From contig NZ_BSDC01000002.1 in the NCBI RefSeq assembly GCF_030268045.1, positions 372,001 to 436,000 of the forward strand: a DNA stretch of 64,000 nucleotides, read 5' to 3'. Position numbers and translations under genes: made by a program. Under the pieces are notes generated by a model. The model was not told where the DNA came from, made no database searches, and saw only the letters and a program-made list of their open reading frames with translations. Source of the stretch: Geothrix edaphica (GTDB lineage Bacteria > Acidobacteriota > Holophagae > Holophagales > Holophagaceae). Positions 19,867 to 41,405 of the stretch are shown here, piece after piece; within the stretch, counting starts at the first letter, position 1; each line of letters starts with the position of its first letter.

Positions 19867-20257
19867 GGGGGTGACCGGTTTCGACAGGTCGTGATCCAGG
19901 TGTTCGGTGCAGGCGGGGGTTGGACGGCTGGCCCCCTCATCAAGCCGCCCAAATCAAACTGCCAACGATAACTTCGAACTGGCTCTCGCTGCCTAGGGCA
20001 ACCTAGGCTCCGAGCGAGTCCTCGGGATCTCTGGGTACCGAGCTCGTTAAACCTCCGAAAGGGTGGCTTCGGCCTGCCGGACGGAGGCACCAGATAGGCC
20101 GCCGCGACGCCCCCTGACAGCGGCCGAGATAAGGGGGCACACGTCCCGAGCGGCTCGTCCGTTCCCCGCCGGGAGGTTTCAAGAGCGGACCAAGCCTGTG
20201 GAAGAGCCGCCATCCGGCATGTCTTGGACGTGGGTTCGACTCCCACCACCTCCACCA
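19867..20257 (+). ncRNA. ssrA: tmRNA (transfer-messenger RNA)
   Basis: Rescues stalled ribosomes by acting first as alanyl-tRNA and then as mRNA. The 5' end GGGGGTGACCGGTTTCGAC is a typical tmRNA start. The acceptor stem GGGGGTG (19867-19873) pairs with CACCTCC (20247-20253), followed by ACCA; the T arm is GTGGG-TTCGACT-CCCAC. The tag frame at 19961-19996 begins with GCC and reads ANDNFELALAA then TAG; the C-terminal ALAA is the expected proteolysis signal. The 391-base length is usual for a one-piece tmRNA. smpB is not in this window. Confidence 0.97.
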
Positions 20258-36398: not shown

Positions 36399-37748
<1,350 letters not shown>

Positions 37749-37770
37749 TCGTCCATTGCTTTTCACCAAG

Positions 37771-37810
37771 GCACAAAAAGGGGGGCCGTCCGCGGCCCCC
37801 CTTTTTGTGC
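37771..37810. terminator. Terminator of gdhA
   Basis: GCACAAAAAGGGGGGCCG-TCCG-CGGCCCCCCTTTTTGTGC, a perfect 18-pair stem with a four-base loop and internal A/T runs. It isolates gdhA from the next gene. Confidence 0.93.
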
Positions 37811-37848
37811 CCAGGCAAGTAAACTGCGGTGGAATCGAGGTCCCCCGC

Positions 37849-40800
37849 ATGTTCAGTCGCGACTTCAATGAGATCTTCCACAAATACGCGACGGACAAGG
37901 AGATCTTCCACGAGCTCATGCCGCTGCGCACCCGGGAGATCCTCCTGGTGGCCCCGGCCTTCGACGCCTTCACGCTGGAGCAGGACGGCCTGCTCACCGA
38001 GATCCTCTTCGACGGCTACTACCAGCTGAACATGAGCAACCCGCCCCGGGTGACCAACGTCTCCACCGTGGACGAGGCCCTGGAGCGCTGCGCCAGCCGG
38101 CACTTCGACATCATCATCGTCATGAGCCGCCTGGGCCAGGGCGGGCATGTGGAGCTGTCGCGGGCCCTGCGGCAGGCGGCACCGCGGATCCCCATCTACC
38201 TGCTGCTCAATGACAACGTGGAAGTGGGCGTCATGGACCGGCGCCGGCAGGAGCTCCAACGCCACTTCGACCAGATCTTCGTGTGGAACGGCAACCCCGA
38301 GATCTTCATGGCCATGGTGAAGTTCATGGAGGACCGCGCCAATGTCCTCAACGACACCAAAGTGGGCCTCACCCGCGTGATCCTGCTGGTGGAGGACAGC
38401 ATCCGCTACTACTCGCGGTACCTGCCCATCCTCTACAGCGAGATCCTCAAGCAGACCACGCGCCTGGCCAAGGACCAGAACATGGACCGCATGACGCGCA
38501 CCCTGTCCATGCGCGTCCGCCCCAAGGTGATCCTGGCCACCTCGTACGAAGAGGCCATGGCCTTCTGCGACCAGTTCCAGGACTGCCTGCTGTGCGTGAT
38601 CTCGGACCGCAAGTTCCCCAAGGACGGCACCCTGGATCGCGAGGCCGGCATCAAGCTGATCCGGGCCCTGAAGGAGCGCATCCCCGATCTGCCGACCCTG
38701 CTCCAGTCCTCGGATCCCCTCAAGGAATCCTGGGCCACGGCCCTGGGCAGCGGCTTCCTGAACAAGAACTCCTACACGCTCGGCGCCGAGCTGTCCGCCT
38801 TCTTCTACGAGCGCCTGGGCTTCGGCGACTTCGTCTTCCGCGATCCCCAGGGCGAGGAGATCGCCCGCGCCACGGACATGGAGGACCTGCGGGACAAGCT
38901 GCGCACCGTGCCCGCCGAGTCCCTGGTCTACCACGCCATGCGCAACCACTTCTCGTCCTGGATCATGGCCCGCGGCGAGGTCCAGGTGGCCAAGGTCCTG
39001 GCGCGGTTCCGCATCTCGGACTACCGCGACCCGGAGGAGATGCGCACCTTCCTCATCGACGTGGGCGACTACGTGCAGCGCATGAAGACCCTGGGCAAGG
39101 TGATCCCCCTCACGGACTCCACGCCCCGGGACGAGCCCAACATCCTCCGCCTGGCCTCCGGCTCCATGGGCGGGAAGGGCCGCGGCGTGGCCTACACCCA
39201 CTCCATGCTCTCCCGCATGGACCTGGAGAGCCTCGTCCCCGAGGCGAACATCCGCATCCCCCGCTCGGCCATCATCGGCACGGAGGAGTTCACGGGCTTC
39301 ATCCACCGGAACGGGCTGCGGCAGATGGTCCAGGACGACCCGGACGACGATGCCATCAAGCGGCGCTTCCTCATGGGGTCGCTGTCGCCGGAGCTGACGG
39401 CCAAGCTGCGGCTCTTCCTCACGAAGCACGCGAAGGTGCCCCTGGCGGTGCGCTCCTCCGGCCTGCTGGAGGACAGCCTCTCCCATCCCTTCGCGGGCCT
39501 CTACAACACCTTCTTCCTGCCCAACAACGACCCCGACCCCGCGGTGCGCGAGGTCCAGCTCGTGGAGGCCATCAAGCTGGTCTACGCCTCCGTGTACTCC
39601 AAGGCTTCCCGCGCCTACTTCCAGGCCATCGACTACAAGATCGAGGAGGAGCAGATGGCCATCCTCGTCCAGGAGGTCTCGGGCCGCCGCTTCGGGAGCC
39701 GCTTCTATCCCCACATCTCCGGCGTGGCCCAGTCCTTCAACTACTACCCCGTGGCCTACACCCAGCCCCAGGACGGCATCGCCAACATCGCCGTGGGCCT
39801 GGGCAAGTACGTGGTGGAGGGCGAGAAGGCCTACCGCTTCGCCCCGCCCTATCCCGAGATGGACATGCTGCCCCCCAAGGAGCAGCTGCGCACCACCCAG
39901 AAGCGGTTCTACGCCCTGGACATGAGCCGGACCTCCGTGGACCTCTACAGCGGCGAGGACGCGACCCTGCTCAACCTCGACATCCAGGAGGCGGAGAAGG
40001 ACGGCGCCCTGCAGCACTGCGCCTCGGTCTGGGACTGGAACGACGACCGCATCCAGGACGGCCTCGACCACCTGGGCCCGCGCATCGTGAACTTCCGCAA
40101 TATCCTCAAGTACGACCAGTTCCCCCTGGCCCGCATCCTCCAGCGCCTGCTGGAGCTGATCCGCGAGGCCATGGAGACGCCCGTGGAGATCGAGTTCGCC
40201 GTGAACCTCGATCCCGATCCTCAGAACGGCAAGCCCACCTTCACCCTCCTGCAGATCAAGCACCAGCTCATGGAGAGCGGGGACGTCAACCTCTCGCCCG
40301 AGGACCTCGACCCCGCCGAGGTCTTCCTCTTCTCCGAGCGCTGCGTGGGCAACGGCACCGTGGAGGGCCTGCGGGACATCGTCTGGGTGGATCCCGAGGG
40401 CTTCGACAAGTTCGAGACCCCGGCCCTGGCGGCGGAACTGGAGAAGCTCAACGACCGCTTCCGCCTCGAGGGCGGGAAGTACGTCCTGCTGGGCCCCGGG
40501 CGCTGGGGCAGCAACGACCGCCACCTGGGCATCCCCATCGTCTGGTCCATGATCTCCTGCGCCCAGGTGATCGTGGAGTACGCCATGGAGAACTTCCAGG
40601 CGGACGCCTCGCTGGGGTCACACTTCTTCCACAACGTGACGTCCCTGAACATCGGCTACTTCACGGTGCCCTACCCGCGGGGCTCCAGCCTCCTCGACTG
40701 GGACTGGCTCCGCCGGCAGCCCGAGGCCTGGCGCTCGGGCTGCCTGGTGCACACCCGCCTGGAGGAGCCCGTCCACATCGTCATGGACGGGCGGCGCAGC

Positions 40801-40863
40801 GCGTCGGCCATCTTCAAGCGCGCACCGGCGCCCCTCCCGGAGGAGCCGGAGGAGTTCCAGTAG
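37849..40863 (+). CDS. PEP-synthase-like ATP-grasp protein with two receiver-like domains
   Basis: 1004 residues. Residues about 15-165 and 172-320 each look like a receiver fold; the second begins RVILLVEDSIRYYSRY and keeps an Asp at the acceptor position (CVISDRKFP), the first has none (IIIVMSRLG). From about 430 onward is a PPDK_N-type ATP-binding region: LASGSMGGKGRGVAY, VPLAVRSSGLLEDS and FAGLYNTFF, ending in TLLQIKHQ (about 801; equivalent of LQARP). The swivelling phospho-His domain and the PEP-binding barrel of PEP synthase are not seen; instead a C-terminal domain with LLGPGRWGSNDRHLGIPI follows. So it may be a kinase or nucleotide-dependent signalling protein rather than PEP synthase. 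ATG 37849 has GAGG upstream. Confidence 0.8.
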   Translation: MFSRDFNEIFHKYATDKEIFHELMPLRTREILLVAPAFDAFTLEQDGLLTEILFDGYYQLNMSNPPRVTNVSTVDEALERCASRHFDIIIVMSRLGQGGHVELSRALRQAAPRIPIYLLLNDNVEVGVMDRRRQELQRHFDQIFVWNGNPEIFMAMVKFMEDRANVLNDTKVGLTRVILLVEDSIRYYSRYLPILYSEILKQTTRLAKDQNMDRMTRTLSMRVRPKVILATSYEEAMAFCDQFQDCLLCVISDRKFPKDGTLDREAGIKLIRALKERIPDLPTLLQSSDPLKESWATALGSGFLNKNSYTLGAELSAFFYERLGFGDFVFRDPQGEEIARATDMEDLRDKLRTVPAESLVYHAMRNHFSSWIMARGEVQVAKVLARFRISDYRDPEEMRTFLIDVGDYVQRMKTLGKVIPLTDSTPRDEPNILRLASGSMGGKGRGVAYTHSMLSRMDLESLVPEANIRIPRSAIIGTEEFTGFIHRNGLRQMVQDDPDDDAIKRRFLMGSLSPELTAKLRLFLTKHAKVPLAVRSSGLLEDSLSHPFAGLYNTFFLPNNDPDPAVREVQLVEAIKLVYASVYSKASRAYFQAIDYKIEEEQMAILVQEVSGRRFGSRFYPHISGVAQSFNYYPVAYTQPQDGIANIAVGLGKYVVEGEKAYRFAPPYPEMDMLPPKEQLRTTQKRFYALDMSRTSVDLYSGEDATLLNLDIQEAEKDGALQHCASVWDWNDDRIQDGLDHLGPRIVNFRNILKYDQFPLARILQRLLELIREAMETPVEIEFAVNLDPDPQNGKPTFTLLQIKHQLMESGDVNLSPEDLDPAEVFLFSERCVGNGTVEGLRDIVWVDPEGFDKFETPALAAELEKLNDRFRLEGGKYVLLGPGRWGSNDRHLGIPIVWSMISCAQVIVEYAMENFQADASLGSHFFHNVTSLNIGYFTVPYPRGSSLLDWDWLRRQPEAWRSGCLVHTRLEEPVHIVMDGRRSASAIFKRAPAPLPEEPEEFQ

Positions 40864-40871
40864 GCGGGCGC

Positions 40872-41405
40872 CTATTTCGCCCGGGTGTACTCCATCTCCA
40901 TGATCTTCACGAAGGCGCCATCCCTGCCCTTCACGAACATCACCGCGGTCCGGTGGTCTCGGTCCACCTGGGTGTGGATTTCTTTGAAGGTGGCGGGCTT
41001 CCCCGCCTCGTCGTAGCCCTCGAAGAAGAGCGTCATCTCCCGGCAGTCCTTGGTGCACGTCCCCTTGGACACGGCCATCCAGGTGCCGCCGTTGTCCACC
41101 CAGCTGCCCACGTGGGCGTTCTGGTGGGTGTCGTAGCCGAAGAGGCCGTGACCCTCGAACGTCTGGCCCATCAGCTCGGCGCGCATCTCGGACTTCAGCC
41201 ACAGCCCGCCCGATACGAGCGTGTTGGTCTCCGTCCCCTTGGACACCATGGGCGGCTTCGAGGGGTCCATGTACATCTTCGCCACGGCGACCCAGGTGCC
41301 GGCCTGGTCCTTCATGGCCAGGTGGTGGGCCGTGGGCTTGGGAAGGGGGCTCTCCTGGGCCGACAGGGCCAGGACGCAGCCGAGGGAGAGGAGCAGGGTG
41401 CGCAT
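40872..41405 (-). CDS. DUF1579-family secreted protein
   Basis: 177 residues with a cleavable signal peptide (MRTLLLSLGCVLALSA, then QES). The mature part has GTWVAVAKMYMDPSKPP, SGGLWLKSEM, FEGHGLFGYDTHQNAHVGSWVDN, the repeating strand pattern of DUF1579 beta-barrel proteins, probably periplasmic. Function unknown. It converges on the PEP-synthase-like gene with eight bases between stops. Confidence 0.8.
   Translation of the reverse strand: MRTLLLSLGCVLALSAQESPLPKPTAHHLAMKDQAGTWVAVAKMYMDPSKPPMVSKGTETNTLVSGGLWLKSEMRAELMGQTFEGHGLFGYDTHQNAHVGSWVDNGGTWMAVSKGTCTKDCREMTLFFEGYDEAGKPATFKEIHTQVDRDHRTAVMFVKGRDGAFVKIMEMEYTRAK

Follow-up and report, generated by a model that had tools for sequence, protein, structure and literature searches.

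What does a protein do that joins two receiver-like domains to an ATP-binding module of the PEP synthase type, and why does its gene lie beside one for glutamate dehydrogenase (GDH)? Both questions are raised by a locus of Geothrix edaphica contained in the window analysed here, a stretch of 64,000 nucleotides in which the two genes are neighbours:

36399..37748, + strand: gdhA, family-I NADP-type glutamate dehydrogenase, directly upstream (NCBIfam NF006929, Pfam ELFV_dehydrog)
37849..40863, + strand: class A gene, encoding a protein of 1004 aa with two receivers (REC1 and REC2), an ATP-grasp and a predicted swivelling domain (ATG start)

The reading developed below, to which we give about an even chance, is that this protein belongs to the PPDK/PEP-synthase superfamily and acts as a receiver-gated phosphotransferase that controls the adjacent GDH. 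An earlier note on this DNA had proposed a phosphotransfer or signalling enzyme near a GDH gene; the proposal appears right in kind, and the gene is indeed nearby, but the link to GDH was given too little weight.

An intact gene in a family of three classes

The reading frame at 37849-40863 (+) is intact, with no internal stops, and is present in one copy in its own genome. Its best relatives, in Geothrix campi, oryzisoli and fermentans, share 95-96% identity over the full length, and the class A gene is intact in 41 further Holophagaceae loci. Outside Holophagaceae, relatives in Acidobacteriota and Bacteroidota show 35-46% identity, and a search of IMG/VR returned none. One Holophagaceae genome (UBA1801, L030:282-6404) has a tail-to-tail pair of class A copies, followed by pieces of a GDH gene; with 76% and about 39% identity to the window protein, they represent two class A subclades.

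Among the Pfam, NCBIfam and PHROGs profiles, PPDK_N is the only one above its curated cut-off in the window protein, and its full-length sequence gave no significant match in the PDB. Related proteins fall into two further classes, of which class B (about 582 aa) consists of the ATP-grasp and C-terminal domain only, without receivers, and class C (about 760-1060 aa) has a different N-terminus. One class C paralogue (L073:4922-8107) bears a nucleotidyltransferase (NTP_transf_2) domain C-terminal to the PPDK-like module. The genome of the window also encodes a second PPDK-type protein, an open frame of 947 aa that includes a PEP-utilizers domain, so that the window protein is not required for the PPDK reaction.

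Two receivers, one without an acceptor

37930..38346, + strand: REC1, aspartate-less pseudo-receiver, residues 28-166 (structure matches, Z about 15)
38368..38838, + strand: REC2, receiver with E182, D183, D253, S287 and K306, residues 174-330 (structure matches)
38605..38607, + strand: D253, predicted REC2 phospho-acceptor (116 of 116 homologues)

Against Pfam Response_reg the window protein gives a partial match below the cut-off, and its Balneicella homologue clears it at residues 201-303 (46 bits; cut-off 30.2). In an AlphaFold2 model of the full-length protein (32 sequences, mean pLDDT 75, pTM 0.52) the N-terminus matches the tandem receivers of PleD, and in VIA-align single receivers match residues 28-169 and 174-330 of the model with Z scores of 14-17. 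Structure prediction therefore gives receiver folds for both domains, as the earlier note had supposed in describing tandem receivers of which one lacks the acceptor Asp. Residue conservation, counted over 116 distinct class A proteins, separates the two. REC1 has the fold without the acceptor Asp of response regulators, the position being Asp in none of the 116 homologues and Met in 100, while REC2 combines the fold with an acidic pair, an acceptor Asp, a Ser/Thr and a Lys, E182, D253 and K306 being present in all 116 and D183 and S287 in 115. Judged by these residues, REC2 is competent in principle and REC1 is a pseudo-receiver.

An ATP-grasp and a predicted phosphohistidine domain

38863..39093, + strand: helical linker, residues 339-415 (sub-threshold DUF5752 similarity)
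39094..40266, + strand: PPDK_N-type ATP-grasp, residues 416-806 (Pfam E 1.2e-34; structure matches)
40315..40824, + strand: C-terminal domain, predicted to be a divergent swivelling phosphohistidine type, residues 823-992 (model)
40621..40623, + strand: H925, predicted phospho-acceptor His in an S-x-G-x-H-F-F motif (conservation; start of a helix in the model)

The PPDK_N-type ATP-binding region named in the earlier note is confirmed by hmmscan (residues 439-806, E 1.2e-34), and in VIA-align it matches the folds of rifampin phosphotransferase (RPH) and PEP synthase with a Z score of about 21. K443 (GGKG), R535 (RSS), E541, D542, E782 and Q802 are present in 116 of 116 class A proteins and E780 in 115; by motif position they match the ATP-site residues of C. 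symbiosum PPDK, namely Lys22, Arg92, Asp321, Glu323 and Gln335. On this pattern of conservation the ATP-grasp looks catalytically intact. H362 (window 38932-38934), in the helical segment that joins REC2 to the ATP-grasp, is almost invariant in class A.

The earlier note had also held that both the phospho-His domain and the PEP barrel of PEP synthase are absent. The second claim stands, in that no Pfam match to a PEP/pyruvate TIM barrel was found and the protein ends about 12 residues past the C-terminal domain, the model closing at residue 1004. The first is probably wrong. Modelled alone, residues 812-996 gave a pLDDT of 88.8 and a pTM of 0.88, and when VIA-align was run over the best 1000 Foldseek-ranked chains, the best matches among those were the His domain of maize PPDK (388-518, Z 6.2) and the phosphohistidine domains of B. 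stearothermophilus pyruvate kinase (476-586, Z 6.1), RPH (764-867, Z 6.0) and Enzyme I (Z 5.7-5.8). The His domains of PPDK, RPH and Enzyme I top this list at Z 5.4-6.2, values near 6 being weak when taken alone; the assignment draws on one structural family filling most of the top ranks and on an independent alignment of the full model, as far as its residue 992, with residues 10-467 of the N. meningitidis PEP synthase (Z 21.4). Foldseek alone returned low-TM matches for the C-terminal model, such as YdhD (TM 0.28-0.29), which were treated as noise. By sequence, the window protein has no match to Pfam PF00391, hmmsearch of the C-terminal profile against PDB sequences gave nothing significant, and neither did hhalign of that profile against 26 acidobacterial PEP-utilizers domains.

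H925 is invariant in the 116 class A proteins and likewise throughout classes B and C. Within class A only H362 and H925 are His in 97% or more of the proteins, and in the part common to all classes H925 is the only one. It is the first residue of a helix (925-932) that follows a strand in the model, and comparison of the topology by eye would place it at the helix position of the PPDK phospho-His. The S-x-G-x-H-F-F motif, where PEP synthase and PPDK have T-x-H-A-A, points to a divergent version of the domain, and the last 170 or so residues are thus probably a divergent swivelling phosphohistidine domain. Of the two features that the earlier note had set against its own reading, a swivelling His domain and a PEP site, the one is probably present and the other was not found.

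The window protein resembles PEP synthase and PPDK in its ATP-grasp (PPDK_N) with K, R, D/E-I-E and Q residues and in the predicted swivelling His domain that follows, and differs from them in having no TIM barrel and in adding two N-terminal receivers. It resembles RPH in combining a PPDK-type ATP-grasp and a swivelling His domain (here predicted) without a PEP barrel; unlike RPH, it has receivers and a GDH association and no drug-binding domain. The RPH order of ATP-grasp, substrate-binding and His domains is not seen, there being no separate domain between residues 806 and 823. Fusions of REC and PPDK domains are mentioned in PMC5847659, and PPDK is listed among the effector domains of aspartate-less receivers in PMC4395418, so the architecture is not new; these two papers mention the combination only, and a function, a His domain or a GDH association was not found in the passages concerned. 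The GDH link of such proteins appears to be new, with no earlier report in the literature searched, a search outside which most subscription papers lie.

Association with glutamate dehydrogenase

The same set of 247 Acidobacteriota genomes was searched for the class A protein, found in 76, and for family-I GDH, found in 93. Both occur in 71 genomes, class A alone in 5, GDH alone in 22 and neither in 149 (Fisher p 9e-36, from genome counts that ignore shared ancestry). Without the genus Geothrix the counts, in the same order, are 52, 5, 22 and 149 (p 9e-28, shared ancestry again ignored). Since the same type of GDH occurs without a class A gene in 22 genomes, it can function alone, which speaks against the reading of GDH control. 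A family-I GDH lies less than 6 kb from 61 of 79 class A genes, and from 42 of 60 outside Geothrix, where the median gap is 154 bp; some of the class A genes with no GDH inside 6 kb are near contig ends. In Acidobacteriota the GDH gene is mostly upstream on the same strand, and divergent and convergent arrangements also occur. The gdhA of the window scores 717 bits against NF006929 (cut-off 536). Comparison of linked with unlinked GDHs revealed almost no distinguishing residues, columns 266 and 447 alone giving a weak signal.

The association extends to Bacteroidota. In Parabacteroides gdhA is divergent from the class A gene and a second GDH lies 3.5 kb beyond, an arrangement shared by Phocaeicola, and the link recurs in other orientations in several further genomes of the phylum. 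At L178-L180, L197 and L208 a class A homologue lies tail to tail downstream of a gdh. In a Bacteroides-like genus, so labelled through sequence similarity to Phocaeicola, 57 of 60 species have a class A homologue, as do 128 of 151 in the family. There the gene may be tail to tail with one GDH or divergent from a prolyl-oligopeptidase-like gene that is followed by GDH; this often intervening gene is named from its length and N-terminus only, and in some species GDH is absent within 7 kb of the class A gene. Conservation of the link across two phyla goes beyond what the earlier note had seen. Class A genes lie beside GDH genes in both, most gut species of the Bacteroides type included, so that the protein is probably an unrecognised regulator of ammonia uptake or release in these bacteria.

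The partner changes with the paralogue. Class B and C genes adjoin a GDH of 428 aa (GDH2) at L073, L074, L077, L078, L080, L081 and L083, and at L087 a class C gene lies beside the same type. Full-length class A copies next to GDH2 (L068-L070) branch with class B in a tree in which the deeper splits of class A have low support, and on this placement the type of partner GDH follows the phylogeny of the protein. The association is thus independent of orientation and phylum-wide, and paralogues without receivers, or with other sensory modules, pair with a different GDH. In several Acidobacteriota clusters a gene of about 285 aa lies directly next to one of class A (or class C). One member of this set (L074:6893-7753) is a calcineurin-like phosphoesterase by profile scan, and similar ORFs at L073, L075, L077, L081 and L083 are recognised by their N-termini only; such a phosphoesterase is a possible candidate for a reversing enzyme, a phosphatase counterpart.

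Two elements lie between gdhA and the class A gene in the window:

37770..37811, + strand: hairpin with U-tract, likely intrinsic terminator (-43.2 kcal/mol, z -7.45)
37820..37825, + strand: TAAACT/TACACT element, possible -10 of a class A promoter (by eye; conserved, weak)

Equivalent hairpins are found in the corresponding intergenic regions of L001-L039 and are conserved in Holophagaceae. A consensus scan did not list the hairpin, and no promoter was found by scan. The conserved terminator-like hairpin suggests that gdhA and the class A gene are probably separate transcription units, in which case mere co-transcription explains their linkage less easily. In three Geothrix species (L001, L002 and L004) an insertion of about 270 bp with near-perfect inverted ends, AGAGCTCCTAACAAAATCC...GGATTTTGTTAGGAGCTC, lies between the terminator and the class A gene and resembles a small mobile element (MITE-like). 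Directly downstream of the class A gene is a DUF1579 protein gene (window 40872-41405, - strand) with no sign of membership in the system.

An older genetic observation may bear on these genes. By the title of a 1996 paper, GDH activity in B. thetaiotaomicron requires one or more trans-acting genes downstream of gdhA (Baggio and Morrison, 1996; title as cited in PMC4539542). The trans-acting factor, which affects GDH activity, and the class A homologues at L178-L180, L197 and L208 are alike in lying downstream of a gdh. In E. coli, GdhA reportedly was active only with a downstream segment of about 3 kb, and downstream DNA supplied in trans is said to have restored the activity. That the factor is a class A homologue is a lead, and such a homologue may supply the gene for the 1996 observation. 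In the stretch BT_1970-BT_1973, considered as the possible locus of B. thetaiotaomicron itself, BT1971 is a catalase, and the match to the 1996 factor stays a lead.

Proposed function and alternatives

The domain content, the intact catalytic residues, the invariant H925 and the GDH association are the observations on which a mechanism may be built. Residues and fold suggest that the ATP-grasp would bind ATP and phosphorylate H925 on the swivelling domain, a step that may be gated by the state of REC2 together with REC1, which would serve for docking only; the phosphate on D253 could come from some kinase or from H925 itself. Phospho-H925 would then swing to an acceptor other than pyruvate, as expected because the PEP barrel is missing. 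Genomic association points to GDH as the most likely acceptor, which would be switched between active and inactive forms. The fuller version of this reading is decidedly more tentative: a nitrogen-control system of Acidobacteriota and most Bacteroidaceae-like genomes, in which a receiver-gated ATP-grasp protein kinase passes phosphate through a swivelling phospho-His to GDH and the other sensory modules of the paralogues serve a second GDH. If true, it would also account for the trans-acting activator of Bacteroides GDH, long left without a gene.

Phospho-H925 might instead pass its phosphate to a small molecule, a metabolite of the glutamate/2-oxoglutarate pathway, the GDH link then reflecting a shared pathway, which would fit co-localisation equally well. 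The best ATP-grasp matches, PEP synthase and RPH, the latter an enzyme that phosphorylates rifampin, are in keeping with this idea. We nevertheless consider it unlikely, as class B (582 aa) has no third, substrate-binding domain, and orientation-independent pairing with a GDH that follows the tree better suits a protein partner. Somewhat less likely again is a non-covalent regulator or assembly factor that binds GDH and alters its folding or its activity; ATP and the receivers would then switch its conformation, and the phosphate would stay on the protein. Receivers usually work through conformation, and the E. coli complementation reported in trans would suit an assembly factor, but the ATP-grasp catalytic residues and H925 are invariant, and a protein that does no more than bind would have no need of them. 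An intramolecular phosphorelay from H925 to REC2 D253, whether within a chain or between neighbouring ones, with the ATP-grasp replacing a sensor histidine kinase, is improbable. Although H925 and D253 share a chain and are invariant throughout the 116 sequences, and a non-systematic inspection of loci showed no histidine kinase gene next to class A, class B has H925 and the ATP-grasp with no receiver, so that REC2 cannot be the general acceptor.

Control of GDH by phosphotransfer, if true, would be a form of nitrogen regulation that differs from PII/NtrBC and from GlnE. It would also put PEP-synthase chemistry to a new use, in which a protein is modified instead of PEP being made. A class A homologue is probably carried by many gut bacteria, in which GDH is a main route of ammonia assimilation. 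Elsewhere in the window, positions 19867-20257 hold an ordinary tmRNA gene with the tag ANDNFELALAA.
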